Positions 9,987-30,446 of a stretch of 64,000 bases of DNA are shown here, in pieces. Below the pieces are notes generated by a model. It had not been told where the DNA came from. It searched no databases and saw only the letters and a list, made by a program, of their open reading frames with translations. Position 1 is the stretch's first letter; each line of letters begins with the position of its first letter. The translations under genes were made by a program, and so were the position numbers. This DNA comes from Desulfobacterales bacterium (GTDB lineage: Bacteria; Desulfobacterota; Desulfobacteria; Desulfobacterales; JAAELO01), in contig JAAELO010000380.1 of assembly GCA_024226555.1 (NCBI GenBank), positions 1 to 64,000 of the forward strand, given 5' to 3'.

Positions 9987-10115
9987 TTCAAAACTCCTCC
10001 CGGTATTGTTTAAAAATTAATTTCTAAATGGTTGAATCTCTGTTACATATTTTCCAATCTTAGAGTATTATTCAATTTTTACTGACAAAGCTCATTCAGG
10101 AATCAAATAAATATA

Positions 10116-10245
10116 GGAAACCTCTAATAATTAGAATTTTGGTTGAAATACAAGGCATAAGAAAAAATAACGAGCTGATTTTACAACAGTTCTTTTTTCG
10201 AAATAACGCTGTAGTTCAATCAAAAGGCGGTTATTAGAGATTCCC
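10116..10245 (-). mobile_element. MITE copy, subtype C, abutting a stop codon
   Basis: A 130-bp element (left end slightly altered, GGAAACCTCTAATAATTAG; right end TTATTAGAGATTCCC). Flanking tetramers are TATA and TCTA. The stop codon TAG of the acyl-CoA ligase (10247-10249) lies one base beyond the element end. Confidence 0.9.
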
Positions 10246-10246
10246 T

Positions 10247-11893: not shown

Positions 11894-12111
11894 TTTTCTC
11901 TTCCTTTTTTTGAAAGTTCAGAAATCTATTATCCAGTTAAAGAATGTACAAAAAAATTAATTAAAAACTTATAGTTATGAGTCAGGTTAAAAACCTGTTT
12001 GTTAAACTTTTCAAAAGTTTAGTTTAAAATAAAAGCAAAGCATTTTATTTCATCACCGGCAGGAGGTTTATCTTAATTTTTTAAAGTTATGTTCCACCGG
12101 ATTGTAACAAG

Positions 12112-13239
12112 TTAAGAGTAAGAAAACTTAGCTATTATCTCCTTCATAATTTCATTTGTTCCTGCAAAAATAGAAGTAATTCTTGAATCCCTGAAAGTTC
12201 TTGCTACCGGGCATTCCTCTAATGATCCAAAATCTCCAATCAGTTCAAGGCATCTTAATGAGATCCTTTTAACAAGATCGGTAGTAAAGTATTTACCCAT
12301 TGAAGTTTCAACAATAATACTCTCTTTTTTCATGTGCTCTTCAACAAGTTTTTCCATGTAAACATTTCCAACAGTAATCTCTGTTCCCATTTCAGAGAGA
12401 GCAAATCTGGCAACCTGGGAATTTAATGCACCTTTGTTTTTCAGATATTCCACTGTCCATTTCAGCATGTTTTCACAGAAGTACATGGCACTGACTGAGC
12501 AAATGAGTCTTTCCTGCTGAAGTTTAGCCATAAGCATTTTAAAACCGTTTCCCTGTGACCCAAGGAGGTTCTCTTTGGGAATCCTACAATCTGAAAAAAA
12601 CAGTTCTGCTGTATCCTGGCTTTTCCAACCCATTTTTTCAAGGGGTTTTCCTTTTGTAAAACCTTTGGTTCCATCCTCCACAAGAAACAGTGAAACAGCT
12701 TTATGTGGATTGTCCCCTTCCGGGTTGATAGCTGCAAGCACTACAAGGTCGCAGTTTACTCCATTTGATATAAATGTTTTTGTGCCATTTATCACAAACG
12801 AGTCACCATCTTCTACAGCAGTAGTATTCATTGAAGCGAGATCACTACCTGAATCGGGTTCAGTCATGCCCACTGCTGTAATTATATCTCCTGTTACACA
12901 GCCTGGTAGATATTTATTAAGCTGCTTCTCTGTTCCATATGCTTCAATATATGGAACTACAATATCACTGTGTATGAAGGTTGCTAATCCATTAAAGTTT
13001 GATCTGGCAAGTTGCTTTGCTACCAGTACAGAGTGCAGGAAATCTCCACCTGTTCCGCCATACTTCTTTGGAAGATTTGGACATAAAAAACCATTTTCTC
13101 CCAACTGTCTCCAGACCGATTTTGGAACTATCTTATCTTTCTCCCATTTCTGGATATTAGGAATCACCTCAAAATCTATAAAGGCCTCAAGCCTTTTTTC
13201 AAAAGCCAGGTGTTCTTCAGAAAATTTTAAAATTTCCAT
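12112..13239 (-). CDS. Acyl-CoA dehydrogenase (IVD/LCAD-type catalytic base)
   Basis: A 375-residue acyl-CoA dehydrogenase with substrate/FAD motif GMTEPDSGSDLASM (124-137). At the position where most family members carry the catalytic glutamate (YEGT), this protein has FAGTNEIMKEII, as in long-chain and isovaleryl-CoA dehydrogenases, which place the glutamate in helix G instead. Glu256 in YFCENML aligns with that alternative base, so the enzyme is probably active. The arginine-rich ETF/FAD segment (RxxFG) is replaced by NKGALNSQ. Its start codon overlaps the stop of the preceding acyl-CoA dehydrogenase gene (TAATG), implying translational coupling and possibly a hetero-oligomer. Confidence 0.9.
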   Translation of the reverse strand: MEILKFSEEHLAFEKRLEAFIDFEVIPNIQKWEKDKIVPKSVWRQLGENGFLCPNLPKKYGGTGGDFLHSVLVAKQLARSNFNGLATFIHSDIVVPYIEAYGTEKQLNKYLPGCVTGDIITAVGMTEPDSGSDLASMNTTAVEDGDSFVINGTKTFISNGVNCDLVVLAAINPEGDNPHKAVSLFLVEDGTKGFTKGKPLEKMGWKSQDTAELFFSDCRIPKENLLGSQGNGFKMLMAKLQQERLICSVSAMYFCENMLKWTVEYLKNKGALNSQVARFALSEMGTEITVGNVYMEKLVEEHMKKESIIVETSMGKYFTTDLVKRISLRCLELIGDFGSLEECPVARTFRDSRITSIFAGTNEIMKEIIAKFSYS

Positions 13240-14369
13240 TATTTGATCTTCCCTATTACTTTATTCGCAATAATATCTTTTAATGCGGAACATGAGGGAT
13301 AAGTTATCTCAAGAGCTTTTGCATCCCTGTAAAATCTCTCCACGTCATATTCAGCCATATATCCATATCCACCCATAAGTTGCACAGCTTCGTCACATAC
13401 ATATACCGCTGCTTTAGATGCAGTTAAAAGGGCCTGGGCAGAGGGCAAATCATCATAATTTCCATTTTCAATATTTTGAGCAGCCTGAAAAGTAAGTAAA
13501 TTTGCTGTTTGAATTTGAGTATCCATATCAGCAATTTTATGTTTTGTTACCTGAAAACCTGCGATTGCTGTACCAAATTGCTTTCTTAGCTTAGTGTATT
13601 CCAAAGCTCTTAAGAATGCTCCTTTTGCAATCCCTATGGCAACAGAAGCCTTTAAAATGTGATCTATGGCAAGATATTTTTTAAGTTTCGATTCACAATT
13701 AAAGGTAAGAATATTTGCGGCTGGTATTTTAGCCTCTGAAAAATCCACATTAGCCACAGGATTCATCCTAAATCCCAATTTTTCACCAAGTGGCCTGATA
13801 TTTATTCCATCTGTATTTTTATCAACTACAATCAATGATAAATTTTCAGAAGGTTCCTCCTTTAAAGATATTAAGCAAAGGATTATAAAATAATCAGCGA
13901 TTTCGGCATTAACTACATATAATTTACTTCCAGAAAGAGTTACAACTCCATCCTGCAAGTAAGCTCTTGTATTTGTACTTTGAAGATTTTTCTCAGATTC
14001 AAGATATGCAAAGGAGCAGACCTTATCTCCTGTTAATAAAGGCACAAGGTATTTTGATCTGAAGTTTTCATCACCATCCATAAAAAGAAGTTCAGCGCCA
14101 CTTGTAGTACTTAGAATAGATGAACCTATACCGGAATCCACAGCACAAAGGGATTGTGCAACAATAACACTATCCACAAGAGATAATTCTTTGTCACCAT
14201 CGATATGTATACCCACAAGCCCAAGCTCTGCAGCTTTTTTCCATATCTCTTCGGGAAACCTACCCTTTTTATCCAGATTCAAAGCTAAATCTTTATCGAA
14301 CTCTCCTTTGGCAAAGGTAGTTGCTGCTTTTTGAATCTCTTTTTGAGATCTTGTCAGATTTAATTCCAT
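13239..14369 (-). CDS. Acyl-CoA dehydrogenase-like subunit lacking catalytic Glu
   Basis: A 376-residue acyl-CoA dehydrogenase homologue. FAD- and dimer-side motifs are kept (LRKQFGTAIAGFQ, VQLMGGYGYMAEYDVERFYRDAKALEI), but the catalytic segment reads TYPSCSALKDIIA where the family has YEGTxEIQ. The usual glutamate is absent, and I find no convincing helix-G substitute. The substrate-side motif TEPxxGSD is also eroded (YLESEKNLQST). It overlaps the next acyl-CoA dehydrogenase gene by one base. The likely reading is a non-catalytic partner in a heteromeric enzyme, as known for actinobacterial ChsE-type enzymes, where one subunit supplies the base. This is inference. Confidence 0.85.
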   Translation of the reverse strand: MELNLTRSQKEIQKAATTFAKGEFDKDLALNLDKKGRFPEEIWKKAAELGLVGIHIDGDKELSLVDSVIVAQSLCAVDSGIGSSILSTTSGAELLFMDGDENFRSKYLVPLLTGDKVCSFAYLESEKNLQSTNTRAYLQDGVVTLSGSKLYVVNAEIADYFIILCLISLKEEPSENLSLIVVDKNTDGINIRPLGEKLGFRMNPVANVDFSEAKIPAANILTFNCESKLKKYLAIDHILKASVAIGIAKGAFLRALEYTKLRKQFGTAIAGFQVTKHKIADMDTQIQTANLLTFQAAQNIENGNYDDLPSAQALLTASKAAVYVCDEAVQLMGGYGYMAEYDVERFYRDAKALEITYPSCSALKDIIANKVIGKIK

Positions 14370-14442
14370 ACTTATTCCCCAACAATAAGATTATCTAATA
14401 ATCAAGTTTTGAGATTAATCCAGTTCGCTTAAAAAATGTTTA

Positions 14443-14841
14443 TTATTCAAGTACGAATTTCAAGGTATGGGTAACCTCCTTAGCATAAGGATCTGGATTT
14501 ACCTTTTTACTTGAAATACTTACTCTTTTTCCAATAAGTTCCATCCCTACAGAATCAGGATCGATATCAAGATTTCCCATAACATGAATTCTGGAATCAG
14601 TTTTAACAAGAGCGACTACAAATGGAGCTTCAAAACCATCTGAGGCAACTCTGATTACTGTATATGTTTTTATTGTACCTGCAGCTTCAAAATTCTTAGT
14701 TTCAAGCTCAGTGGACCCGCAATGTTTACAAACTACCGATGAATGAAAAGAAAACTGATTGCATTTTTTGCAATGGATCCCCAAAAGCTTTTCATCCGCA
14801 AGGCCCTTTTGATATTCATTAAGAGATAATTGATTTATCAT
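14443..14841 (-). CDS. DUF35 OB-fold zinc-ribbon protein
   Basis: A 132-residue protein with an N-terminal zinc ribbon (CKKCNQF at 24-30, CKHCGS at 38-43), then an OB-fold (about 50-130). DUF35 proteins accompany SCP2-type thiolases and act as acyl-CoA-binding partners in thiolase, aldolase and HMG-CoA synthase complexes. Its start ATG overlaps the thiolase stop (TAATG), with the ribosome site GAGGAG inside the thiolase 3' end, so the two are made together. A complex with the thiolase is the natural expectation. Confidence 0.9.
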   Translation of the reverse strand: MINQLSLNEYQKGLADEKLLGIHCKKCNQFSFHSSVVCKHCGSTELETKNFEAAGTIKTYTVIRVASDGFEAPFVVALVKTDSRIHVMGNLDIDPDSVGMELIGKRVSISSKKVNPDPYAKEVTHTLKFVLE

Positions 14842-16013
14842 TACTCACTCCTCAAGATAAGGTTACACACTGTTCCAAACTCTCCGCCCAAAGTATCCAC
14901 AAGTCCTGTCTTTGCACCTTCGACCTGCCTTTTGCCCGACTCACCCCTTAATTGCTCTACTATTTCAGTAACCTGCGCCGCACCTGTGGCACCAATAGGA
15001 TGACCTTTTGCTTTAAGTCCCCCGGATGGATTAATAACAGTTTTTTTGCTACCAAGCCTTGTTTCACCTTTTTGGGCAGCATCATACCCCTTACCAAATT
15101 CATAAAAGCCAAGACATTCGATTGCCAGGATTTCAGCTATTGTGAAGCAGTCATGGAGTTCACAAAGGTCAATGTCAGATGGTTTTACTCCTGCTTCCTT
15201 ATATGCCTGAGCAACAGACGCTTCTCTTGTTTTGATTCTTGTCATATCGGGATTATTAATAATTGGTCCGCCTGCGGCCTGGCCAGTTCCAATTATATAA
15301 ACTGGTTTATCGGTCATCTCCATAACCTTCTGCTTTGTTCCGATTACTACTGCGGAAGCACCATCAGAAAAAGGGCAGCAATCAAGAAAGTGTAGTGGAT
15401 CTGCAACCATAACGCTATTTAAAACTTTATCAACTGTGATCTCTTTTTGAAATTGTGCCTTTGGATTCATGGATGCATGATAATGGTTTTTTACAGAGAC
15501 ATTTGCCATATATTTCTGAAGTTCTTCAATCTCAATCCCATACTTATCAGCATACATATGAGCTGCCATTGCAAACACTCCGGGAAAAGTTATCCCGGTT
15601 GGAGCGCTGTATCCAGCATTTGATGCCATTGCAAAAGTTCTTGTGGCAAGGGGCGTGTCCATTGCTGCAACCCGTTCTGTTCCACCAGCTAAAACAACAT
15701 CATATACTCCTGCCCCAACCATTAGAGCAGCTTGCCTTACAGCAATTGTTGCTGTGGCACATGCATTTTCATATCTCATTGCGGGTGAATCCATTGGAAG
15801 TCCTAATGCCGCATGTATATGTGAAGCTATGTGAGACTGGCCCTCTTCAAAATCTCCAAGGCAGTTACCTACAAAAAGTGCTTCAATGTTTTTTGGTTCG
15901 ATCTTTGATTTGTTAAGAGCATCTATCCCTGCTTCACAAAACATCTCAACGCATGTATTTTCAGAAACTCCAAAATCTGTCATGGAAACTCCTGCGATTG
16001 CTACTTCTCTCAT
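14841..16013 (-). CDS. SCP2-type thiolase (acetyl-CoA acyltransferase-like)
   Basis: About 390 residues. The start at 16013 (MREVAIAG) is chosen for its strong ribosome site GGGAGGAG 6 nt upstream; the frame could extend to 16055. Thiolase motifs are the nucleophile region ENACATATIAV, the HDCFTIAE segment typical of the SCP2/SCPx branch, GGLKAKGHPIGATG with the catalytic histidine, and a late GTVCNLIL with the second cysteine. Both catalytic cysteines and the histidine are present, so true thiolytic cleavage is plausible, although related Ltp2 proteins with DUF35 partners are aldolases. It lies 13 bases after the dehydrogenase gene and is coupled to DUF35. Confidence 0.9.
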   Translation of the reverse strand: MREVAIAGVSMTDFGVSENTCVEMFCEAGIDALNKSKIEPKNIEALFVGNCLGDFEEGQSHIASHIHAALGLPMDSPAMRYENACATATIAVRQAALMVGAGVYDVVLAGGTERVAAMDTPLATRTFAMASNAGYSAPTGITFPGVFAMAAHMYADKYGIEIEELQKYMANVSVKNHYHASMNPKAQFQKEITVDKVLNSVMVADPLHFLDCCPFSDGASAVVIGTKQKVMEMTDKPVYIIGTGQAAGGPIINNPDMTRIKTREASVAQAYKEAGVKPSDIDLCELHDCFTIAEILAIECLGFYEFGKGYDAAQKGETRLGSKKTVINPSGGLKAKGHPIGATGAAQVTEIVEQLRGESGKRQVEGAKTGLVDTLGGEFGTVCNLILRSE

Positions 16014-16026
16014 CTGAAACTCCTCC

Positions 16027-16794
16027 CTATCTTCCTGACATTCGAATGGAACCATCTAATCTGATAGTTTCGCCATTGATTAGTGGATTCTCGATTATAC
16101 TACATACAAGCTGTGCAAACTCTTCCGGTTTACCAAGTCTCTTAGGAAATGGTACCTGCATGGCAAGAGATGCTTTTACTTTTTCGGGAAGTTTACTAAG
16201 CATTGGCGTTTCAAAAATTCCAGGTGCTATTGTGGCAACCCTGATTCCGTAATCAGCAAATTCCCTTGCCATTGGAAGAGTAATACCAACAATAGCTGCT
16301 TTTGATGCTGTGTACGCGACCTGCCCAATTTGCCCCTCAAATGCTGCGACAGAAGCAGTATTGATGACTACACCTTTCTCTCCATCACTATTTGATTCAC
16401 TTTCGATAATTTTTGGAGTGGCATGACAGATAACATTCATTGTTCCTGTAAGATTTATACTAATTGTCTTATTGAAAAAATCCATGGACATGGGACCATC
16501 TTTCCCAAGAACCTTCATCGCTGTTCCGATGCCCGCGCAATTTATAACAAAATTGATACCATTAAATTTATCCATAATGGCATCAATAGCATCTTTTACG
16601 TTTTCTTCATTTGAGATGTCTGTTTTAAAAAAAAGAACTTTATCACCGTACTGGCTCTCAACTTCCTTACCGTTTTTCTCATCCATATCCAAAATTGCAG
16701 CACAAGCGCCTTTTTGAATTAAGAGATCAACACAGGCTTTTCCAAGACCGGAAGCCCCACCTGTTACTATAGCAACTTTATTTTTGATATCCAT
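16027..16794 (-). CDS. Type II 3-hydroxyacyl-CoA dehydrogenase (HSD17B10-like SDR)
   Basis: A 255-residue short-chain dehydrogenase. It shows the NAD motif TGGASGLG, then NCAGIG, INTASVAAFEGQIGQVAY, the catalytic YTASK, and a C-terminal NGETIRLDGSIRM. The stretches INTASVAAFEGQ and the end of the protein follow human HSD17B10/HADH2 almost word for word as I remember it. The expected reaction is NAD-dependent oxidation of 3-hydroxyacyl-CoA, including 2-methyl-3-hydroxybutyryl-CoA of isoleucine breakdown. The ribosome site AGGATAG precedes the ATG. It is first gene of the dehydrogenase-thiolase-DUF35 run. Confidence 0.92.
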   Translation of the reverse strand: MDIKNKVAIVTGGASGLGKACVDLLIQKGACAAILDMDEKNGKEVESQYGDKVLFFKTDISNEENVKDAIDAIMDKFNGINFVINCAGIGTAMKVLGKDGPMSMDFFNKTISINLTGTMNVICHATPKIIESESNSDGEKGVVINTASVAAFEGQIGQVAYTASKAAIVGITLPMAREFADYGIRVATIAPGIFETPMLSKLPEKVKASLAMQVPFPKRLGKPEEFAQLVCSIIENPLINGETIRLDGSIRMSGR

Positions 16795-17002: not shown

Positions 17003-17157
17003 AGAAACCTCTAGTAATTAGAATTTTAGTAAAATAAAAACTAAAGTATTTTATTAGCGTAATGAAATACAAGTTTTGACAAAAAGTAACGAGCCGATTT
17101 TATTACAGTTATTTTTTTTATAACGAAGTATTTTGCTAAAAGAACAGTTATTAGAAA
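17003..17157 (-). mobile_element. Degenerate MITE copy with internal insertion
   Basis: Starts with AAACCTCTAGTAATTAGAATTTT and ends with GAACAGTTATTAGA, but the last terminal bases are lost. The interior matches subtype A (GAGCCGATTTTATTACAGTT) with about 30 extra bases near the left end. Confidence 0.75.
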
Positions 17158-17245: not shown

Positions 17246-18184
17246 TCAATAACATAACATGGGCATTAAATTGTCTTCATCCTCATCTTCGAAAATTTCA
17301 TTCTGCCCTCTTGTCAGAACAGTTGTATCACTACAGTTATCTATTAGTTTTACTGCTTCAGCGCTTATATAATTTTTTTCAATATTCAATTGTTTCAATC
17401 CTTTTAATAAATCGCTTTTAATAAACTCATTAACTCCTTTTTCTGTTAATGTGCCGAGGGAAAGATCAATTACTTCAAGCTGATTTATAATAGATGCATC
17501 TTTTAAACTTTTCATAATCTCATTTGAAATATCACTTCCTCTGAAACCGAGGCGGGTTAATTTGGGAAATAAATCCTTAGTCATCAAATCTTCTATGTCC
17601 TCTATTCCCACTTCCCGTAAAGGCTGAATCCCACCCTGGGATTGGCTACTCCATGTTCCCAGATCAAGTTCAAGATGCTCTAACTCTGGTAGGCTTGATT
17701 TTGCTATATTTTTAATAATTCTCTGGTCAATAAATGTACCGGTTAATTTAAGTTTCTTAAGTTTTTTACTTTTAATTGGTTTCAGGATTAAATCCGCACT
17801 TCCAACTGTAATAAATGTTTCTAATTCAGGATATGCCTTGAATAAAGGGGTGTAGTCACAATGTATCACATCTTTTATAAAATAGTCAGTATCACCTGAT
17901 AGATCACCCATACATATATCTTTAAGCATGGGTAGTGATTTTTTATTTTCACATAAAAATGACACAATCTCTTTAGGAGATATTAAGTAATCATATGAAT
18001 ATCTATCTGTTCCATGCCAGCATCCAATTTTCACAGATGTTACCATAAGTGATTCTTCAGTTTTTATAAAATCAATAAGTTCTTTAATTATTACCTCTAA
18101 AGCAGGTTCAGTTAGATTTCCATTGTAGGCTATGAATTTTTTTTCAACCTTATTTTTTCCAGGCCAAAACCATACTTTATTCAT
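17246..18184 (-). CDS. STM4015-like leucine-rich-repeat protein
   Basis: A 312-residue cytoplasmic protein with irregular leucine-rich repeats from about residue 95 to 290 (for example LPELEHLELDLG, FPKLTRLGFRGSDIS, INQLEVIDLSLG, LKGLKQLNIEKNYIS). The N-terminal segment SVKIGCWHGTDRYSYDY and PELETFITVGS resemble the STM4015 family, an LRR family of unknown function. The C-terminus is acidic (EDEDEDN). AGGAG lies 7 nt before the ATG. It stands alone between two repeats. A protein-binding role is likely from the fold; no partner is evident. Confidence 0.75.
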   Translation of the reverse strand: MNKVWFWPGKNKVEKKFIAYNGNLTEPALEVIIKELIDFIKTEESLMVTSVKIGCWHGTDRYSYDYLISPKEIVSFLCENKKSLPMLKDICMGDLSGDTDYFIKDVIHCDYTPLFKAYPELETFITVGSADLILKPIKSKKLKKLKLTGTFIDQRIIKNIAKSSLPELEHLELDLGTWSSQSQGGIQPLREVGIEDIEDLMTKDLFPKLTRLGFRGSDISNEIMKSLKDASIINQLEVIDLSLGTLTEKGVNEFIKSDLLKGLKQLNIEKNYISAEAVKLIDNCSDTTVLTRGQNEIFEDEDEDNLMPMLCY

Positions 18185-18299: not shown

Positions 18300-18489
18300 G
18301 GGAATCTCTAATAATTAATATTTTGATTGAAATTCAACGTTTATAAAACTTTCAGTTTTATAAAATCTCTGCTTGAGAAAAAAATAACGAGTTGATTCGT
18401 TTATAAAAAGCTTTTATTTTATAAAGATAACAGTTCTTTTTTTCTTATAACACAGTAATTCGGTCAAAATACAGTTATTAGGGATTCCC
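18300..18489 (-). mobile_element. Long-form MITE copy (190 bp)
   Basis: Terminal repeats GGGAATCTCTAATAATT and CAGTTATTAGGGATTCCC. Flanking tetramers TAGT and TAAT differ at one position. The interior carries two extra palindromic blocks built on TTTATAAA, shared with the copies at 28184, 51733, 52757 and 57781. It ends 19 bases after the stop codon of the large fusion gene. Confidence 0.9.
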
Positions 18490-18508: not shown

Positions 18509-21500
18509 CTATGCAACCTTATTACAACTGTTGCATTTTGACATGTGAAGTACTTCACTGTCCATATTTGGTCTTAACAAGTGATTTGGCTGGGATGCAA
18601 TTCCAAAATTATTGTTATATTTATTATAATTAAGTGCTTCTGTATAGGATTGAACTTTAGTATAGGTACTACAAGGATCAATAGTAGGATCGATGCAATC
18701 TCCATCCAGTACCAGTAGTGGGATACCTATTTCATTTAATGCTGAACGTAAATATCTGATCACTGTAATGTCTGACAGGGCACACCTTCCAAACATATGG
18801 TTATATAATATACAGCCATTTGCACGACTTTTTTGAAGTTGTTCAACAACTAATTTTATACGTGATTCCATATTTAGGAAACCTGCCTCCAGTATTTTTT
18901 TGGATAATGAAGTATAGGGATCATTAATGTCAAGGGGTGACCATTGCACAAAGTTTACTTCTTCCATAATAATTGGAGCATTACAGGTGTTTTCAATAAA
19001 ATTCATAAGATCAGTATTATAAAAAGGAGATAGATGCAGCCACATAATTCTGTGGGTATCATTAATATCTACTTTTCCTTCAAGCTTGTGTTTTTGTTCC
19101 AGCAGATCTACGTTTAGTTGATTCTGGATATCCACAAACTCTTTAGTACCCCATCCCTGTGATAGAATATTGGCAAAGTTAATTGCTGACTGACCTGCAA
19201 TAAGTGGAGGGCTTGTATATCTTAAATGATTGTTTTCTATTGATATTTCCCTCGCCTGATTGGAATATTCAAATGCTTCTTCCAGGCGATTCATATCCAT
19301 TTTTTGCCCAAGGCTCTTTTCCAGACAATGAATAGAGCGTTCTATATCTGCTGATAGATCTTCTACTGCGGAAGGTCCCATATCAATAGGAGTATTTAAA
19401 GAGTAAAATGAATCCTCTTTTCCGTTTGAAACAACAAGATCTCTTAAAATTCGTTCTCCCTGCTGGCAAGGTTGTGATGTTGATACACCGGCAGCTGGCT
19501 GGGGCAATTCCATCCCCTCAAGAACTCTTAAGAAAGAACATGTTTCAGCTCCGTATCCTTTGTACATAGCCTTATCGAGGGATTTTTTTATCTCCTTACG
19601 ATTTTGAGCTGCGAGTGCTGCTCTGGATTCAAGGGTAAATACTCTGCAATCAAGTGCATTTAAAATCTCAACTGGATAAAACAGGTTACGCCATACAAGA
19701 GGCTTATCTTTATTTCCAAAAAAATCTTTAATAACCATTTTACTTCGCATTGTTATTGATTTTTTTCTCAAATCCTCTTCTGAAAAAAATGGTTCATGTG
19801 ACACTTCAGATTTAATTTTTGAGTGTTCCTTTGCAAGAATTGCTGCACCATATGCTCCCATAACCTGATAGTTTTCCGGTACGATAATTTCATTACCTGT
19901 AATTTGGTGCAGGTAGTGAGCAACAACTTTATTTGCAGCAACTCCGCCCTGAAATAGTATTGTTCCCTTATAATTTGAGAAAACATCTCCTACCCCAGAC
20001 ATAACGGTTCTCGCCTGAGCCGCACATGCACCGCCAATTAGTTCTGAGAGAGGATATCTGTTTTTATACTTATTAATAGATGTTGCCGCAAATACAGCAC
20101 AAACTGATGAAAAATCCAGGGTGGAGTTATAATCTGCTACATTCTCCATATCTTCAACGGCAACTTCAAGTTTTGCCGCCACATTATCAAGGAAAGCACC
20201 TGTTCCAGCTGCGCAAATTCCACTCATCTTAGATTGCCATATTCCAAGCTTTGAATCATAAATCATGGATTTACTATCTTGTCCACCAACATCAAGTATT
20301 GCATTACAATCGGGATATAGATTTAAAGCTCCGGCAACATGCGCTGTAACTTCACTTACATGGGCGTCATAGGGAATATGATTCTTTGTCTCTTCAGTAA
20401 TTTGACTTCCGGTAACAATTATGTTCGCTACATTTTCCAATGATAAACTAATTTCAGAAAGGGCATTTGTAACAACATTTTTTAAACTACCCAGGGAACA
20501 AAGACCACATTTTTCACAATTTCCAGCACATTTTGCTGGTTTTCCTTTTCCAGGTTTTGATCGTTCATAGGTGGAGTGGCAGATGTCGCCCTGATCATTT
20601 AAAATGGCAGTTTTAATTGTAGTTGAGCCGGCGTCGATCCCCATAAAATAAAGGTCGCCTTCCCTGTGCTCAAAATCGCTTTTTTGGAATTTAACCTTGT
20701 TTTTTTTGCCTGTTGTAATATTGTTTTCTGATTCAAGGGTTTTACTAATTACTTCCTTGAGTTTACTAACAGCATTATTATCTACTTCAAAGTCTTTAGT
20801 ATAGTATTTTATTAAATCTGCCTGGTATTCATTATATATATAATTTGAGGCCTCTTTAATTGAACTATATTCCAAAAACATAAAAGGATTCAGATCAAGA
20901 TTAAATGTTTCATTTATTTCATTTGTAAATGCTGTCAGACCTATTGAGTCAAACCCCACATCCCCCATATCTGTATCTATTTCAATGTCAGCAATACTTA
21001 TTTTAAAGCACAGGCAGGCAACTCTAATTAACTCTTCACAAATATTACTTAGCAAGTACTCCTTCTTTTCCTCTTCATCCATTTTATGAAGAGATTTTCC
21101 CATTAGTTTTAATGAAGGAGTAGCATTAGAGTTCTTGTTAGTGATGTCATCTTCCATATAAAACCCATCAAACATGAACCTTTTTTTCTTCATAGATTCG
21201 ATCGGGATTTTTTTATATGATATTTCAAAATCTTTTACTTTGTTGTAGTAGGCTGTACGGGATGCCATCTCTTTAATAATATCCTGGAATAAGATCCTTA
21301 AATCACTTTCATCCATTCTCTGGTCTTTCTCTTTTTCAAGTGTTGATACAGCATCAAAATCCGGATGAATTATGGCGTATGTATGTTCTCCAATGAGTGG
21401 GTCAAGTTTGGGCATTACTATTATTTGAGAAATATATTCGCTTTTTAGCAGTTCTTTTTCTATATCCTCTGTATAAATATTTTTGCCACCCTTGTTGACA

Positions 21501-22882
21501 ACAATTTTTCTTATTCGTCCAGTAATATATATAAAACCTTTGTCATCTATTCTTGCGACATCACCTGTATGGAGCCATCCATCTTTATCTATGACAGAAT
21601 CTGTCAACTCCGGCTTTTTATAATAACCTTTCATCATACTCGGTCCCTTTACAAGGAGTTCTCCATTTCCTGTACTATCCGGATTATCAATTTTGACTTT
21701 AGCATTCATAATGACAGGACCAATTGAACCAGGGTTATTGTTATCAGGTTTGTTTGCGCTGACAATTGGGGTATATTCTGTTAAACCGTATCCCTGAAGA
21801 ACTGAAATACCTAACTCACCCATTCCATCAATAATTTTTTTATGCAGGGGAGCACCGCCCGATATTATAAATTTCAAATGATCAAATTTAATATCTTTTG
21901 CTTTTATTATTTTAAACAGATTTTCAACAAGTATCGGAACTGTTGCCATATAATCAATCTGTTCCTCTTTCAATGTACGAACAAAATCTTCCATTTGGAA
22001 TTCGGTTTGAATAACAACGTTACCATATGTAATGATTGGCATAAGAAATCCTGTAAGAACAGGATAGGTATGGTGATAAGGGACATTTGCAAGCCATTTA
22101 TCTCCCTGATTAAAATATTTTCCATTACATTCATAAAGATCGTATGAACCATATGCATTAGCCATTAATCCATTGTGTGTAAGCATGGCAAATGTTGATC
22201 CTTTTGCAAGAATCATTGCTGCCACATCATCTGGTTTTACTATGATTTTTGAAAAAAGATCATAACCTTTCTTAAGGAATTTCCGGCCAATGTTTTTCAT
22301 GGACCAATAAAGAACAAACTCATAGTCTTTAAATGGAACATCTTTTTTGATTTCTTCATTTTCAATAAACTCTATTTTATCGTTCAGGTGGGTTACTGGC
22401 GCGTTTTCTATAAAGTCTCCCTTGTATTCAAATCTCTTTTCATCTATATCAAAGCTGACAACTTTGGTTAATTTTACTAATTCATTTTTGATTCTGAAGA
22501 TATTATCGATATGAAAACCTGAAACAAATATTGTACGTAATCCACTTGCGTTAATCGCTTTTTTCAATTGCTCAGGTTGTAAAAAAATATCTAAAGGCAC
22601 TACAACAGCTCCCATGGAACATATAGCAAGGTATGTTATGGGCCACTCTGTTCTGTTTTCTGAAAGAATACCAACTCTATCGCCTTTTCTAACACCCATT
22701 TTTACAAGGGAAGTACTTATGGACTCAATTTCACTCTTAAGGTCTCCAAAAGTCAATCTTTGATGAATATCTCCAAACCTGAGGCTCATCGCTTCAAGAT
22801 CAAATTTTTCCTTTTTAATACCCCTAATCATATCGCTTATTGTTTCAAACCTGTCATCCATTTTTGAATCTTTGTTTTCCAA
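18509..22882 (-). CDS. Four-module fusion: acyl-AMP ligase / acyl carrier / dehydratase activase / 2-hydroxyacyl-CoA dehydratase subunit
   Basis: A 1457-residue protein, starting at a TTG (22882) with AGAGGTG 6 nt upstream. The frame extends to an ATG at 22942, but that lies in a repeat remnant without a ribosome site. Positions below count from that ATG. Residues 28-600 are an AMP-forming ligase with good late motifs (QGYGLTEYTP, LHTGDVARIDDKGFIYITGR), but the P-loop is shortened to AKGSTFAMLTH (247-256). Residues 630-705 are a carrier domain with GFDSIGL (phosphopantetheine serine 666). Residues 767-1040 are a BadF/BcrA/HgdC activase: GIDAGSTTIK, DVGGQDSK, and cluster cysteines 910 and 948. 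Residues 1085-1470 resemble the HGD-D/BcrB dehydratase-reductase subunit, with Cys 1135, 1387 and 1416. It may perform an ATP-driven radical dehydration or reduction on a carrier-bound acyl group. Confidence 0.88.
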   Translation of the reverse strand: MENKDSKMDDRFETISDMIRGIKKEKFDLEAMSLRFGDIHQRLTFGDLKSEIESISTSLVKMGVRKGDRVGILSENRTEWPITYLAICSMGAVVVPLDIFLQPEQLKKAINASGLRTIFVSGFHIDNIFRIKNELVKLTKVVSFDIDEKRFEYKGDFIENAPVTHLNDKIEFIENEEIKKDVPFKDYEFVLYWSMKNIGRKFLKKGYDLFSKIIVKPDDVAAMILAKGSTFAMLTHNGLMANAYGSYDLYECNGKYFNQGDKWLANVPYHHTYPVLTGFLMPIITYGNVVIQTEFQMEDFVRTLKEEQIDYMATVPILVENLFKIIKAKDIKFDHLKFIISGGAPLHKKIIDGMGELGISVLQGYGLTEYTPIVSANKPDNNNPGSIGPVIMNAKVKIDNPDSTGNGELLVKGPSMMKGYYKKPELTDSVIDKDGWLHTGDVARIDDKGFIYITGRIRKIVVNKGGKNIYTEDIEKELLKSEYISQIIVMPKLDPLIGEHTYAIIHPDFDAVSTLEKEKDQRMDESDLRILFQDIIKEMASRTAYYNKVKDFEISYKKIPIESMKKKRFMFDGFYMEDDITNKNSNATPSLKLMGKSLHKMDEEEKKEYLLSNICEELIRVACLCFKISIADIEIDTDMGDVGFDSIGLTAFTNEINETFNLDLNPFMFLEYSSIKEASNYIYNEYQADLIKYYTKDFEVDNNAVSKLKEVISKTLESENNITTGKKNKVKFQKSDFEHREGDLYFMGIDAGSTTIKTAILNDQGDICHSTYERSKPGKGKPAKCAGNCEKCGLCSLGSLKNVVTNALSEISLSLENVANIIVTGSQITEETKNHIPYDAHVSEVTAHVAGALNLYPDCNAILDVGGQDSKSMIYDSKLGIWQSKMSGICAAGTGAFLDNVAAKLEVAVEDMENVADYNSTLDFSSVCAVFAATSINKYKNRYPLSELIGGACAAQARTVMSGVGDVFSNYKGTILFQGGVAANKVVAHYLHQITGNEIIVPENYQVMGAYGAAILAKEHSKIKSEVSHEPFFSEEDLRKKSITMRSKMVIKDFFGNKDKPLVWRNLFYPVEILNALDCRVFTLESRAALAAQNRKEIKKSLDKAMYKGYGAETCSFLRVLEGMELPQPAAGVSTSQPCQQGERILRDLVVSNGKEDSFYSLNTPIDMGPSAVEDLSADIERSIHCLEKSLGQKMDMNRLEEAFEYSNQAREISIENNHLRYTSPPLIAGQSAINFANILSQGWGTKEFVDIQNQLNVDLLEQKHKLEGKVDINDTHRIMWLHLSPFYNTDLMNFIENTCNAPIIMEEVNFVQWSPLDINDPYTSLSKKILEAGFLNMESRIKLVVEQLQKSRANGCILYNHMFGRCALSDITVIRYLRSALNEIGIPLLVLDGDCIDPTIDPCSTYTKVQSYTEALNYNKYNNNFGIASQPNHLLRPNMDSEVLHMSKCNSCNKVA

Positions 22883-22895
22883 TGTATACACCTCT
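22880..22895 (-). promoter_or_regulatory. Ribosome site deciding a TTG start
   Basis: On the minus strand AGAGGTG, then TATACA, then TTG. The good spacing argues for initiation at the TTG rather than at the ATG 60 bases upstream (22942) or the ATG 21 bases downstream. Confidence 0.7.
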
Positions 22896-22918
22896 ATTGA
22901 TAAAAAATTATTTATGGC

Positions 22919-22958
22919 ACCCTCTAATAATTTAAAGATCATTAATTAGAGGTCGCCC
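22919..22958. mobile_element. Minimal MITE remnant (terminal repeats only)
   Basis: CCTCTAATAATT and AATTAGAGG face each other across about 11 bases, flanked by CACC and TCGCCC. This looks like a copy collapsed to its two ends. It supplies a spurious upstream ATG to the fusion gene. Confidence 0.5.
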
Positions 22959-23310: not shown

Positions 23311-25119
23311 TTACATTTTTATTCTCTCGTTACATGGAACTTCAACATGAATACGTGTTCCAACTTTCTTCTTTGACTGAATTTTAAACATTCCCTTTAA
23401 CAAACCAACTCTTTCCTCAATACTAATCAGTCCCATCCGTTTTTCAGTAATCAACTCTTTTTTTCTACTACTCAAATCAAAACCCTTACCATTGTCTTCA
23501 ATTTGTAAAATAATATTAGGATATGATGATATAAGATTAACTTTCACAAGACTGGCATTAGCGTGTTTTTTGATATTATGAAGTGATTCCTGTACAACTC
23601 TGTAGATATTAATTTCAGTATCAAAATCCAGGCGCAATTTATCAAGTCCGCCAGAATAAAATTCTACCTCAATACTATTTGTATGTTGAAAATCCTTACA
23701 ATATTCTGAAACTGTTTTCACAATCCCCAGCTGATCTAGACTTGCCGGACGTAAATTATATGTTAGCTGCCTGATTGAATCTATCGATTCCTGACAGATC
23801 CTGGTCATTTTTTTAATCTTTTTTCTTAAACCCGGACCGATTCCAAAACTGAAACCAAAAAAGTTCTCACATATAATTTTAAGGGCTGAAAGATTCTGAG
23901 CTAAATCATCATGTAACTCCCTTGATATTCTCAGTCGTTCATCCTCCTGAACTTTTATTAAAAGGCGTGTTAAATCTTTGATATGCTTATCATTTTGCTT
24001 TTGTTCTGTAATATCTCTCATGATAGTTGAATAATAGATTTCATCAAATTCAAATTTCTGATGAGCCATTACAACCTGTGAAACGATGATATCAGATTTA
24101 TCTTTTGCCGTAAGAGTTCTCTCACCAGTCCATATACCATTGTGAGTTTCAGATGGGATCCCCTCATGTAGAGTCATGTCATCACCAGGAGAAAAGCCAA
24201 ACATCGCCCTTCCGGCTTGATTAAGATATTGAATTTTTCCATTGGCATCGTAAGTAAAAACAAAATCAGGGGTTGCTTCAATTATATCTATAAGTCTTGA
24301 ACGCTCTTCAACAACTTTCCTCTGTGTTATGTCTCTTATACTTGCAAGTATACTAACAGAGTTTTCATTTTCGCTAATAAGTGTTTGATTTATTTCAAGG
24401 TAAAAACGTTTTCCGGATTTGTGAATTCCTTCTATTTCGATCAAGGGTGGCCCTTCACCATTAAGAGCCCCTTGAAAAATAGTAAAAATATTTACCATGT
24501 CCACCGGATGAAAAATGTCCAACTCTGTAAATTTTTTTCCAATTAGATTGTCACTTGTATAGCCAAACAACTCTTCGACTTTTTTATTCGAAGCTCTTAT
24601 AACAGCATTATCATCGAGATAGACTATACCGTCATTTGCATTTTCAAAAAAGGTTTTGAATGATTCGGTTTTTTCCCGAAGTATTTTCTCCTGATATTTT
24701 CGTTCTGTGATATCCCGAATGATACTGACACTTTCTGTAACCCTGTCACCTCTTCGTATCAAACTTGAATTAACTTCTACAAATTTAGGATGTCCATCTT
24801 TGGAAATTGCTTTCAACTCAACCATTTTTGACGAATCATCTATCTGGATATCTTTTATATATTCAGATATTTTCCGAATATCTTCTTCTCTTAGTATATT
24901 TATTTCATGATAGGGCCTACCGACAATATCTTCTGATTTGTAACCAAATGTTTTTTCAAAACTCCGGTTTACATCTAAAATTTTACCTTTATAATCTGTA
25001 TGGACAATTGAATCACCAGCGTTTTCAAAAATCTGTTTATAACAGCTTTCAATCCTCTGAAATTCTATAGATTTATCATCAAATTCATCATATTCAAATT
25101 CATTCAACATATATCTCAT
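23311..25119 (-). CDS. Soluble PAS-domain histidine kinase (NarL-partner type)
   Basis: A 602-residue kinase with no membrane segment. Three PAS modules occupy roughly 20-140, 145-265 and 270-370; each is followed by a PAC-type ending (SIIRDITERK, SIRDITQRK, IMRDITEQK). A HisKA_3 domain (DERLRISRELHDDLAQNLSALK, phosphorylated His) follows near residue 400, then a HATPase_c domain with DNGKGFD and MGLISIEERV. HisKA_3 kinases usually pair with NarL/LuxR-type regulators, and none is encoded beside it, so it is an orphan here. The signal is probably a cytoplasmic redox or small-molecule cue; the ligand is unknown. GAGG precedes the ATG. Confidence 0.9.
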   Translation of the reverse strand: MRYMLNEFEYDEFDDKSIEFQRIESCYKQIFENAGDSIVHTDYKGKILDVNRSFEKTFGYKSEDIVGRPYHEINILREEDIRKISEYIKDIQIDDSSKMVELKAISKDGHPKFVEVNSSLIRRGDRVTESVSIIRDITERKYQEKILREKTESFKTFFENANDGIVYLDDNAVIRASNKKVEELFGYTSDNLIGKKFTELDIFHPVDMVNIFTIFQGALNGEGPPLIEIEGIHKSGKRFYLEINQTLISENENSVSILASIRDITQRKVVEERSRLIDIIEATPDFVFTYDANGKIQYLNQAGRAMFGFSPGDDMTLHEGIPSETHNGIWTGERTLTAKDKSDIIVSQVVMAHQKFEFDEIYYSTIMRDITEQKQNDKHIKDLTRLLIKVQEDERLRISRELHDDLAQNLSALKIICENFFGFSFGIGPGLRKKIKKMTRICQESIDSIRQLTYNLRPASLDQLGIVKTVSEYCKDFQHTNSIEVEFYSGGLDKLRLDFDTEINIYRVVQESLHNIKKHANASLVKVNLISSYPNIILQIEDNGKGFDLSSRKKELITEKRMGLISIEERVGLLKGMFKIQSKKKVGTRIHVEVPCNERIKM

Positions 25120-25451: not shown

Positions 25452-27713
25452 CTAAGAAGCTTCTAACATTTTGGAACTGTTTTTATAAAGGTTATCAACT
25501 TTACTTCGGATTCCTTCACTTCTTTTTGCTACCTGTTTTACAATATTTCCAACCTCTTTTGCATTTTCACCAGCTATTTTAGCTGTAATACGCATCTGTT
25601 CACCCTCACTTGACTGGTTCAAAATAGAATCGGCAATAAAGTTGTTAATGTCATGAATTCTATCTATTACCATTGTTATCTCATTTATGGACATGATAGT
25701 TTTACTTGATGAATCCTGAATACCTCTGATTTTGTTAGATATCATTTTTGCCGATTCATTGGATTTACCCGATAGGTCTTTTACTTCATTTGCCACAACA
25801 GAAAATGCTTTCCCAAAGCTACCCGCCCTTCCGGATTCAATATTTGCATTAAGAGCAAGCAGTCTTGTCTGATCTGAAATATCCGTAATAGCTTTTACAA
25901 TTGTTGTAATATTTTGTGCCTGGTCCTCAAGAGAATCTACTATTGCTTTACTATTCAGTGTTTCGCCCTTTGCATCATCGGATATTATTTTTGCTTCACC
26001 GGTACTTATGACGATCTCTTTCAGCTGGTTTAAACTTATCTGGATTGTATCACTCATCTCAACAACAGAAGTTATCATATCTTCCGATTTTGAGTAGGTT
26101 TCTTTGAGCGCTGATTCAATCTGATGTGTCTCCTCACGAATCTGAGCAACGTTTTTCTCCATATAACCTGAGTAGTTATCAAGCCTTTCTTTCTCTTTTA
26201 TTCTCATATCTTCAACATGCTTTTGAGAACTATATGCTCTTTTTTGTTCAAGCTGAATAGCATCAATCATAAGATTAAAATGGTGTGCAAGATCACCAAT
26301 TTCAGTACCTGTTTCTACATCAACCTTTACAGAATCATTGAATTGGCTATTGTTTGTAGCTGTTTGCATTGCACTGGCAAGTTCTAAAATCGATGAACGG
26401 GCACCATGTTCTGCTATGTTTAAACCTATTATCTCATCTTCAGGTGTAACTCTCATCTTCCAGCCTAACAGATCTGTAACTTTAAGAAAGATGTATGTAA
26501 GACCAAATGTCCATATAAAACATGCTGCAACTCCCAGACACTGGATTCCAAACTGGTAAAGAGCAGACACTCCTTCAGGCAAAGTACCGGGTACTATTGT
26601 GAGTGCAATTGTTCCCCATGCTCCGCAAACCCCATGAACAACTATTGCGCCAACAACATCATCAATTTTCAAAACCCTTTCAAGATATCTTGTTCCGAAA
26701 TAAACCAAAGCTCCTGATACAAGACCGATTATACATGCTCCAACCCCAGACACCATGTTGCATCCGGCCGTTATTCCAACAAGTCCTCCCAGAATTCCAT
26801 TCGCAATCATTGTGCCTTCAGGACGTTTCTTTGAACTGAAGTTCCAGCTTAAAGCTGTGGCAGAAATACATGCAAAACATGCCGAAATAAGTGTAGTCAT
26901 GGCTATTTTTGCAATTTCAGGTGTTGCTGAAGTTGTACTTCCACAATTAAATCCGAACCAGCCAAAGAAAAGTATAAAAACGCCAAGATAAACCATTGGC
27001 ATGTTATGGGGAGCAATATCGTTTGTGGATCCATCCTTGTTGTATTTTCCAATCCTTGGCCCAACAACGATAACGCCGGCAAGAGCAGCCCAGCCGCCAA
27101 CTGAGTGAACAACTGTTGATCCAGCAAAGTCCAGAAAACCAATTTTCTCAAGCCATCCCTGAGAGGCTTCACCCATTAGAAGTGATCCCCACGCCCAGTG
27201 GCCAAATATCGGATATATTACTGCTGAAACAAATGCTGACATCAGGAGATAACTTGAAAATTTAGTTCTTCCGGCAAGAGCTCCGGAATCTATAGTTGCA
27301 GCTGTACTTGTGAAAACAACCTGGAATATGAAAAAAACACACACCCACTCAACCGGTTGTCCAACAATGGATTCCTGCATTGAGCTCATATTTACATCGG
27401 GAACAGATAGAATATTTGTCCATCCAATAATTCCATTATCAGAAACATTGGCTCCAAACATCAGGCTAAAGCCGACTAACCAGAAAGAACAACTTGCAAT
27501 CACAAAGTCACATATGTTTTTAATGGATACATTTATTGAGTTTTTTGCTCTTGCCATACCCGCTTCCACACATAAAAAGCCTGCCTGCATAATAAAAACC
27601 AGTATTGCCGCTGCAAGAACCCATACGTAATCCACATTACTATGTTCGGCAAGTCCTTGTTCACCAGCATAGATAGAACCGGTCATTAAGAAAAAGAAAA
27701 TTGTAGTTTTCAT
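25452..27713 (-). CDS. Ammonium transporter fused to a methyl-accepting chemoreceptor domain
   Basis: A 753-residue fusion. Residues 1-18 look like the cleavable signal often found on Amt proteins. Residues 25-430 are an Amt/Rh ammonium channel with about 11 helices, including the pore histidine pair in STVVHSVGGWAAL and AIVVHGVCGAWG. After a linker (about 430-540) comes a chemoreceptor signalling region with the hairpin-tip sequence QTRLLALNANIESGRAG, then FSVVANEVKDLSGKS (about 620-660). This predicts a sensor reporting ammonium, or channel conformation, to the CheA/CheW system. No glnK gene is adjacent, although Amt genes are normally paired with it. The ribosome site is weak, and a repeat element lies 34 bases upstream of the start. 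Confidence 0.93.
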   Translation of the reverse strand: MKTTIFFFLMTGSIYAGEQGLAEHSNVDYVWVLAAAILVFIMQAGFLCVEAGMARAKNSINVSIKNICDFVIASCSFWLVGFSLMFGANVSDNGIIGWTNILSVPDVNMSSMQESIVGQPVEWVCVFFIFQVVFTSTAATIDSGALAGRTKFSSYLLMSAFVSAVIYPIFGHWAWGSLLMGEASQGWLEKIGFLDFAGSTVVHSVGGWAALAGVIVVGPRIGKYNKDGSTNDIAPHNMPMVYLGVFILFFGWFGFNCGSTTSATPEIAKIAMTTLISACFACISATALSWNFSSKKRPEGTMIANGILGGLVGITAGCNMVSGVGACIIGLVSGALVYFGTRYLERVLKIDDVVGAIVVHGVCGAWGTIALTIVPGTLPEGVSALYQFGIQCLGVAACFIWTFGLTYIFLKVTDLLGWKMRVTPEDEIIGLNIAEHGARSSILELASAMQTATNNSQFNDSVKVDVETGTEIGDLAHHFNLMIDAIQLEQKRAYSSQKHVEDMRIKEKERLDNYSGYMEKNVAQIREETHQIESALKETYSKSEDMITSVVEMSDTIQISLNQLKEIVISTGEAKIISDDAKGETLNSKAIVDSLEDQAQNITTIVKAITDISDQTRLLALNANIESGRAGSFGKAFSVVANEVKDLSGKSNESAKMISNKIRGIQDSSSKTIMSINEITMVIDRIHDINNFIADSILNQSSEGEQMRITAKIAGENAKEVGNIVKQVAKRSEGIRSKVDNLYKNSSKMLEAS

Positions 27714-28303: not shown

Positions 28304-28987
28304 TTATTTAAGATCTGATTCTTCAAACTTATATCCAACACTGTAAATGGATTTAATTATCTCCATGGATGGGAAAACAGAAGATATTTTCTTACGGAGT
28401 TTTTTTACATGGCTATCTATAGTCCTGTCTGAAACTATTCTGTCGTCTGCGTATATGTTATTCATTAGGTTTTCACGGCTAAATATAATTCCGGGATTGT
28501 CAGACATCACTTTGAGAAGTTTTAGCTCGATAGTCGTTAAATCAAGTTCCTTTCCTGCTATTTCTGCATAACCCCTTGATTCATCAATTGTGACTATTTT
28601 TGAGGTCTGTTTTTTTTCATTACCATTAACTCTTCTAAGAACAGTTTTCACACGTGCAACAACCTCTCTAAAACTAAAAGGCTTACATATGTAGTCATCT
28701 GCTCCAAGTTCAAGTCCAAGGAGCCTGTCTATCTCTTCCACTTTTGCTGTTATCATAATAATTGGAATATCTGAAAAAGCTCTTAACTCTTTGGCTATTT
28801 CAAGCCCATCTTTGCCAGGAAGCATAAGGTCCAGCAGGATAAGGTTTGGGTTCTCTTTTTTTACAAAATCTGTAACCTCAAGTCCATCATGTATCAGTTC
28901 TGTTTGAAAACCAGCATTTTTAAGATAATCGGAAAGAAGTTCAGCCAGTCTTTTCTCATCTTCAACTATCAGTATTTTTTTGTTCAT
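28304..28987 (-). CDS. OmpR-family response regulator (BaeR/CpxR-like)
   Basis: A 227-residue regulator. The receiver domain (1-118) has the acidic pair at 10-11, phospho-acceptor Asp53 in LILLDLMLP, and the conserved Lys in YICKPFS. A winged-helix DNA-binding domain (about 130-222) ends in SDRTIDSHVKKLRKK and SVGYKFE, typical of OmpR/PhoB. It lies 10 bases after the histidine kinase gene, so the two form one two-component system. With the upstream Spy-like gene, an envelope-stress role like BaeSR or CpxRA is likely. Confidence 0.93.
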   Translation of the reverse strand: MNKKILIVEDEKRLAELLSDYLKNAGFQTELIHDGLEVTDFVKKENPNLILLDLMLPGKDGLEIAKELRAFSDIPIIMITAKVEEIDRLLGLELGADDYICKPFSFREVVARVKTVLRRVNGNEKKQTSKIVTIDESRGYAEIAGKELDLTTIELKLLKVMSDNPGIIFSRENLMNNIYADDRIVSDRTIDSHVKKLRKKISSVFPSMEIIKSIYSVGYKFEESDLK

Positions 28988-28997
28988 TTATTATATC

Positions 28998-30446
28998 CTA
29001 CTTTAGTAATGGGAGTTTAATAACTACAGACAAACCACCCTTCAATGATTTTAATGCTTTTATGTTTCCATCATGTGCCGATACAATATTTTTACAGATA
29101 GCAAGTCCTAAACCTGAACCACCAAAATCCCTGTTTCGGGATGATTCCACCCTGTAGAGTCTATCAAAAAGCTTTGTTAAAGTCTCCTCTGGAACACCCG
29201 GTTTGGAGTCTTCAAAGGTAATTATGATATTCCTATCTTTATCGATGGCACTTATATTAATGCTACCCTTGGAATCGGTATAATCGATTGAGTTTTTAAT
29301 TATATTTCCAAACAACTGACTCAAACGCTCAGTATCACCAAATATTTTAGTAGATTCAATTGTGTTTAAGGATAAAGAAAGTTCAGATAATTCAATTCGA
29401 TCCCTGAATTTATCCACAGATCTTTTAAGTATTTTAACAGGATCAATACTATCCATTTTATAGTTCATTGAACCGATATCAGTTCTTGAAAGTTCGTTAA
29501 GGTCATTTACAAGACGTATCAGATGTCTGATATCTTCCTGCATCAGTTTAACAGTTTTGGAAGTAAGAGGTCTTACCCCATCTTCCATAGCCTCAAGTTC
29601 ACCACTTAAGAGTGTAAGTGGTGTTCTAAGTTCATGTGCGATATCTGCGGCCCACTTTTTTCTATCCTCTTCATTTTCACTTAGGGTTTTGGAAAGGATA
29701 TTAAAATCCCTTGCAAGATCACCCAGTTCATCCCCTGATTTTTCAGGAATTTTTATGTTAAAATTACCTTTAGTGAGCTCTTTTGCACCATCAGCAATAA
29801 TTTTGATCGGTTTTTCTAGAAAGTAGGATGCCCAGATTCCAACAATTACAGATAGTAGAATCATTCCAACAGAGATTATAAAAAAGGTTCTGTACTGGTT
29901 ATACAAAAACCTTTGTTCATCTTCCATCCTGATATTATGACCCGGATAGAACCCAAGATAACCAACTCTTTTATTATTAATTATAAGGGGGACTTTTTTC
30001 AGATCATCTCTGTCTCTTAATCTCCCAAGCACCACAGCACCATTTTTGTCCATGAGGATGATCGGAGGTCTTTTTTTTCCACCCGGTGGCCGTTTATCCA
30101 TATGACGATCCCTTTTGCCTCTTCCCCCAGGGCCAAATTCCCGAGGTCTTCTATCCCCGTCTCTTTTTCGGTCCCGTACTCTTTTTCTGAATAGTTTTAA
30201 AAAAGGTCTTTCAAGCATAAAAAAAATTTCAGGATCATCAATCAAAAACTGAATATCATCCTCTTCGGGAAAGTATTGAGCTATGCTTTTGGATATTGCG
30301 TTAACTCTTTTTAATTCTCTGTGTTCCAGATAGTTTGAGAACTGGTATCTAAAGGTAATTTTAGAGATGAAAAACATACCTGTCACCATCACGATACTGA
30401 TGGATAAAATCATTAAAAACAGTTTATATTTAAGTTTGAATCTCAA
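28998..30446 (-). CDS. Sensor histidine kinase (BaeS-like) with Arg/Gly-rich sensor loop
   Basis: A 482-residue membrane kinase. Transmembrane helices lie at about 8-30 and 187-210. Between them is an extracytoplasmic segment containing an unusual basic, Gly/Pro-rich stretch (about 85-130; for example GPGGRGKRDRHMDKRPPGGK). A HAMP region (about 210-262), a HisKA domain with IAHELRTPLTLLSGELEAM (phosphorylated His) and a HATPase domain with FGGSGLGLAICK follow. It is paired with the regulator 10 bases downstream. The basic loop resembles the C-terminal tail of the neighbouring Spy-like protein, hinting at a shared ligand. Confidence 0.92.
   Translation of the reverse strand: MRFKLKYKLFLMILSISIVMVTGMFFISKITFRYQFSNYLEHRELKRVNAISKSIAQYFPEEDDIQFLIDDPEIFFMLERPFLKLFRKRVRDRKRDGDRRPREFGPGGRGKRDRHMDKRPPGGKKRPPIILMDKNGAVVLGRLRDRDDLKKVPLIINNKRVGYLGFYPGHNIRMEDEQRFLYNQYRTFFIISVGMILLSVIVGIWASYFLEKPIKIIADGAKELTKGNFNIKIPEKSGDELGDLARDFNILSKTLSENEEDRKKWAADIAHELRTPLTLLSGELEAMEDGVRPLTSKTVKLMQEDIRHLIRLVNDLNELSRTDIGSMNYKMDSIDPVKILKRSVDKFRDRIELSELSLSLNTIESTKIFGDTERLSQLFGNIIKNSIDYTDSKGSINISAIDKDRNIIITFEDSKPGVPEETLTKLFDRLYRVESSRNRDFGGSGLGLAICKNIVSAHDGNIKALKSLKGGLSVVIKLPLLK

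Follow-up and report, generated by a model that had tools for sequence, protein, structure and literature searches.

Enzymes of the 2-hydroxyacyl-CoA dehydratase (HAD) and benzoyl-CoA reductase (BCR) family perform some of the hardest radical chemistry in anaerobic metabolism, and the characterised members use coenzyme A (CoA) esters or, in the case of PlsA, lipids. To our knowledge, no enzyme of this family has a carrier-bound substrate, and literature searches found no report of a carrier-bound HAD enzyme. Fusion of an activase with a reductase is, as such, already known from single-gene PlsA, in which one open reading frame (ORF) holds a pair of activation and a pair of reduction domains (PMC12838417), and secondary-lipid synthases have already been described in sulfate reducers (PMC3098273). 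Here we describe a gene from the Desulfobacterales assembly GCA_024226555.1 (contig JAAELO010000380.1, positions 1 to 64,000, hereafter the window), whose product joins a ligase-like domain, an acyl carrier protein (ACP) domain, an activase and a dehydratase-type HGD-D domain. We interpret this fusion, with a probability of roughly one half, as a carrier-tethered, HAD-like, ATP-driven enzyme of a polyketide or secondary-lipid pathway.

The host assembly comprises 7.69 Mb in 904 contigs and is 98% complete. Comparisons draw on four further contigs of the same genome (C386, C313, C354 and C755) and on two relatives from the same order, G017 (from another family) and G040. Full-length DsrA is encoded in the host genome, G017 and G040, and all three are presumably anaerobic sulfate reducers.

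Modules and catalytic residues of the fusion

The gene is a single frame without internal stop (ORF check of the window), and Pfam places AMP-binding, phosphopantetheine carrier, activase and HGD-D modules along its product from N to C terminus, all four above the curated cut-offs; AMP-binding_C gave no match in the protein. This order on one polypeptide is the one given in a preliminary description of the locus, and the domain search of the full protein bore it out, finding both the carrier and HGD-D. The features of the gene are as follows.

18509..22942, minus strand: fusion gene, 1477 aa, ligase-like / ACP / activase / HGD-D (ORF, Pfam, coding scan)
21143..22858, minus strand: ligase-like ANL domain without P-loop, residues ~29-600 (Pfam AMP-binding at residues 56-441, 1e-58; motif alignments, tree, moderate-confidence ANL-like model)
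22181..22204, minus strand: site of the missing P-loop, KGSTFAML where intact relatives have SGTTGxPKG (alignment)
20837..21031, minus strand: ACP domain, residues 638-702, phosphopantetheine site Ser666 (Pfam PP-binding, 3e-10; alignment)
20657..20836, minus strand: Lys/Asn-rich linker from ACP to activase, in the same frame (coding scan, alignment)
19832..20641, minus strand: HgdC/HadI-type activase, residues 768-1037, C910 and C948, DVGGQDSK (Pfam BcrAD_BadFG, 3e-31; NCBIfam, alignment)
20498..20530, minus strand: four-Cys motif C805xxxC809xxC812xxC815 inserted in the activase (alignment)
18635..19684, minus strand: HGD-D, residues 1087-1436, alpha-subunit type, C1135/C1159/C1387 and E1105 (Pfam HGD-D, 3e-36; alignment, profile)

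The four modules are real and lie within one gene. In a codon-usage scan, the best-scoring frame is unchanged in every 75-codon block through ligase, ACP, linker and activase, the GC content at third codon positions (GC3) is even over the modules (0.26-0.29), and 4431 bases are free of stops at 34% GC. The exact start codon is uncertain, with homology beginning at about residue 29.

The activase scores 129.1 bits against TIGR00241 (NCBIfam cut-off 125.4), carries the ASKHA ATP motifs and is nearest by sequence to HadI and HgdC. It retains both cluster cysteines, C910 in ICAAGTG and C948 in SSVCAVF, as the preliminary description had noted. The G017 protein also has the four-Cys insert, which is missing from the ten other activase rows aligned, eight of which are a full test, the double-cubane cluster protein (DCCP) activase DCCP-R and MbdQ rows being without the N-terminal part; the insert may hold an extra cluster feeding electrons.

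For the HGD-D domain, the nearest structural references are the alpha subunits HadB and BzdO. The ligands of BzdO are C95, C128, C380 and E65, six cysteines define the double-cubane subunit BzdN, and His131 of BzdO is Ala in HadB (PMC11971306). In the fusion, C1135, C1159 and C1387 align with HadB C84, C117 and C346, which bind the open [4Fe-4S] cluster of its catalytic site, and E1105 aligns with HadB E55 and BzdO E65. NCBIfam places the domain closest to HadB (61 bits, vs 19 bits for BzdO), and a profile of the fusion and G017 proteins matched alpha subunits only (HadB, BzdO) in the PDB, with no beta subunit or double-cubane chain among its matches. Because no obvious counterpart of BzdO His131 directly follows C1159 in the alignment, the predicted chemistry fits a dehydratase better than an aromatic reductase. 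At the remaining three double-cubane positions, the C354 protein and E. coli YjiM have Cys and the fusion has other residues.

There is only one HGD-D in the fusion, and none is adjacent to it in the window; three further HGD-D proteins are encoded elsewhere in the host genome, on C354 and C755, and two of the three adjoin an activase of their own. The single dehydratase-type subunit noted at the outset is thus confirmed. The separate partner then suspected is possible and not required, since homodimers of the double-cubane type function with a single kind of subunit.

Polyketide ancestry of the front half

The ligase-ACP region (residues 1-741) has 37% and 34% identity to polyketide synthase (PKS) proteins on C386 and C313, and 31% to one from G040. 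The C386 and G040 proteins carry AMP-binding, ACP and ketosynthase domains (Pfam), and in the C313 protein, matches to the PfaA model directly behind the ligase-ACP region reveal the ketosynthase; in the fusion, this place is taken by the activase. The four ligases form one clade (support 100/99), with the fusion as sister to C386 (97/95), and all four have an identical four-residue gap at the P-loop, where they read AKGSTFAM, MHGKQFAV, VSNKIGVM and MHGDRFVM. A recognisable P-loop (SGTTGxPKG) is kept in most of 13 other AMP-binding domains aligned, the distant L017 being partly degenerate, and the ordinary CoA ligase downstream in the window has it intact (TSGTESNPKG). Judged from these sequences, the front half of the fusion is by ancestry a polyketide starter unit.

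Because the ATP P-loop is deleted in the fusion and in its whole clade, ATP-dependent adenylation in cis is unlikely, and an active adenylating ligase, as in the preliminary description, was not supported. Other adenylate-site motifs are retained (QGYGLTE, HTGD, ITGRIRK), the ANL motifs A5, A7 and A8 are present, and PF00501 scores 199 bits. A wholly dead ligase, considered from an apparent loss of A10, is no more than a possibility after re-alignment, which puts a Lys at the place of the A10 catalytic lysine in the fusion and not in its three clade relatives. The ligase-domain model matches ANL structures (seven-row alignment; moderate, mean pLDDT 58); its P-loop region is of low confidence and was left out of the evidence. 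The carrier serine is kept (S666, DSIGL) within PKS-type flanks.

The P-loop-less polyketide starter-unit ligases lie at L021:5694-9749, L022:4014-14342 and L031:3989-11008. Literature searches found no report of a P-loop-less starter ligase, and a clade of starter-unit ligases lacking the ATP loop raises the question of how such assembly lines are loaded.

Locus conservation, proposed mechanism and alternatives

In G017, the activase-HGD-D pair occurs as a stand-alone protein of 702 aa, 52% identical to the fusion and without ligase or ACP, whose gene begins ~30 bases after that of a PAS histidine kinase. Two features upstream of the fusion gene have counterparts on that contig.

23311..25119, minus strand: PAS histidine kinase upstream of the fusion gene (49% identity to the G017 kinase)
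28304..30446, minus strand: response regulator and histidine kinase pair (63% and 41% identity to the pair on the G017 contig)

Since the PAS kinase and the regulator-kinase pair are common to both, the locus is orthologous in the two genomes, and in the lineage of the window the starter unit was probably gained by an in-frame insertion between the kinase and the activase. The next gene upstream of the G017 kinase encodes PfaD, the enoyl reductase of polyunsaturated-lipid and polyketide synthesis. At 617 bits (cut-off 449; L020:8671-10365) it is the only PfaD of that genome; it lies ~2.2 kb upstream of the activase-HGD-D gene with only the PAS kinase between, and the PfaA-type synthase is on another contig. 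In the host genome, the C313 starter-unit megasynthase adjoins a protein in which a PfaD domain scores 681 bits. The host fusion and the G017 PfaD neighbourhood are two separate lines that appear to connect the radical half with the carrier-based assembly of polyketides or secondary lipids. The carrier-bound chain proposed earlier as the likely substrate gains support from the G017 PfaD neighbour and from the descent of the ligase-ACP half from a PKS, and stays a prediction; the suggested conserved neighbours were found in the kinase and the regulator-kinase pair, and the same four-module order was found in no other genome, only the activase-HGD-D pair recurring in G017.

We propose that a two-domain ATP-driven radical enzyme, composed of an activase and a HadB-type alpha subunit, gained a fused polyketide starter unit. 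Since the fused ligase has no ATP P-loop, the acyl chain on Ser666 of the ACP would be delivered in trans by a different ligase or by a transferase. In a putative homodimer, the two activase halves would hold one [4Fe-4S] cluster between them, with C910 and C948 contributed by each chain; with hydrolysis of ATP, they would pass on an electron of low potential, whose entry might involve the cluster that the four-Cys insert may hold. The HGD-D cluster (C1135/C1159/C1387) would offer an open iron site, with E1105 as acid/base, for HAD-like dehydration, or less likely reduction, of the chain on the phosphopantetheine arm. The setting would be polyketide or secondary-lipid synthesis in an anaerobic sulfate reducer. 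If true, the radical chemistry of HAD and BCR enzymes enters polyketide and secondary-lipid assembly lines, and strict anaerobes gain a route to remove unactivated hydroxyls there.

Several observations weigh against this proposal. The window holds no PKS or PfaD gene beside the fusion, and among the genes closest to it downstream is a beta-oxidation-like operon whose CoA ligase is of the ordinary kind. Across the order, class and phylum samples, which overlap and amount to several hundred distinct genomes, the four-module protein occurs in one genome and the activase-HGD-D pair in two; a full-protein search of genome contigs for the same fusion matched only distant ligases, viral contigs gave no match, and the matches in plasmid and phage records were single activases without the other modules (25-32% identity). 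The position of HadB Ser37, which we take to be an active-site residue, is Leu in the fusion, and structure prediction of the activase-HGD-D half without alignment gave no usable model (pLDDT 33). The strongest caution is that the front half may be a vestigial passenger, given that its ligase is probably defective and that the G017 orthologue does without a starter unit.

This caution leads to the most serious alternative, possible though clearly less probable than the carrier-tethered reading, in which the catalytic half uses an ordinary CoA ester, as in HAD, or a small molecule, as in DCCP, and the ligase-ACP half is vestigial or a scaffold. Loss of the ligase P-loop, the G017 orthologue without attached ligase or ACP, and the downstream operon with its intact CoA ligase are all consistent with it. 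The ACP serine with its PKS-type flanks and the adenylate-binding motifs beyond the P-loop are nevertheless kept, an unrelated gene and gaps of ~325 and ~450 bp separate the beta-oxidation genes from the fusion, and in G017 the catalytic half is linked to PfaD instead.

Rather doubtful is a self-contained carrier-bound radical dehydratase, in which the P-loop-less ligase would serve as an AMP-dependent shuttle (acyl-CoA to acyl-AMP to acyl-ACP, without ATP), the homodimeric activase-HGD-D would dehydrate or reduce the chain on the ACP by ATP-driven ketyl-radical chemistry, and the four-Cys insert would be the electron entry cluster.

We consider it unlikely that the activase-HGD-D pair is a redox-sensing system working with the PAS kinase, and not a metabolic enzyme. 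The kinase does directly precede it in both genomes, and the nearby two-component pair is also conserved; neighbouring enzymes are, however, often under kinase regulation, the catalytic ligands and acid/base Glu are intact, and PfaD and the PKS-derived front half would be left unexplained.

It is very improbable that the fusion works on membrane lipids as a variant PlsA/PlsR plasmalogen synthase, the family invoked in the preliminary description. PlsA also has activase and reductase in one ORF (PMC12838417), and together with ~1400-aa proteins of the host itself it makes the earlier statement that activase and dehydratase are normally separate too strong. Yet the fusion has one activase and not two, one HGD-D and no DUF2229, and plasmalogen synthase identity was rejected on these grounds, which leaves the plasmalogen link weak. 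Its activase is no nearer the PlsA-like proteins of its own genome (25-28% identity) than HadI (30%), an ACP is present, and separate PlsA-like proteins are encoded in the genome. The latter are four activase proteins of ~1400 aa (L033:2522-6685, L034:1245-5432, L035:3051-7271 and L036:2955-7256), of which the two checked by Pfam each have two activase domains and DUF2229; near some of the four lies what looks like a TetR-type regulator.

That two genes were joined artificially during assembly, conceivable in a draft genome with the complete fusion found only once, is hardly credible because the in-frame coding signal is unbroken and GC3 even across the junctions, with the upstream kinase orthologue retained and the long stop-free frame at low GC.

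Three other features of the window were recorded. The beta-oxidation-like operon (8136-16794, minus strand) is compact and encodes a short-chain dehydrogenase/reductase, a thiolase, a ChsH2-type OB protein, three acyl-CoA dehydrogenases and the CoA ligase. A leucine-rich-repeat-like gene without Pfam match (17246-18184) lies between imperfect 43-base direct repeats (17112-17154 and 18439-18481, 79%). An Amt-chemoreceptor fusion of 753 aa (25452-27713, minus strand) combines an ammonium transporter domain with HAMP and a chemotaxis signalling domain.

Comparison with known systems

The fusion resembles the HAD systems (HgdC/HgdAB, HadI/HadBC), whose substrates are (R)-2-hydroxyacyl-CoA esters, in its activase with two cluster Cys and its alpha-type subunit with three Cys and Glu, HadB being the best NCBIfam and PDB match. 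Unlike them, it joins activase and dehydratase behind an ACP, has the four-Cys insert and a Leu at HadB Ser37, and has no separate beta subunit for an alpha-beta dimer, either within it or alongside. With DCCP/DCCP-R and E. coli YjiM/YjiL it shares one HGD-D type and one activase, which would permit a homodimer; identity as a double-cubane protein was nevertheless rejected, since only three of the six cluster Cys (the proximal ones) are present, and identity to the C354 protein and YjiM is 16-17%. In the class I benzoyl-CoA reductases (BzdNOPQ, Mbd), a comparable catalytic subunit, of BzdO type, has these three Cys as well, and Glu65; the fusion has no BzdN-like subunit, and its second Cys is not directly followed by a His. 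PlsA/PlsR likewise place activase and reductase domains in one polypeptide, but the fusion has single BcrAD_BadFG and HGD-D domains without DUF2229, and adds the ligase-like and ACP domains. Its ligase has the ANL fold and the motifs YGLTE, TGD and GRxRK of fatty acyl-CoA ligases, fatty acyl-AMP ligases (FAAL) and AasS, and differs from these in lacking the ATP P-loop. With the AMP-ACP-ketosynthase starter units of the C386, C313 and G040 polyketide synthases, the fusion shares the same didomain, a monophyletic origin and the same P-loop deletion; where those proteins continue with a ketosynthase, it continues with activase and HGD-D.

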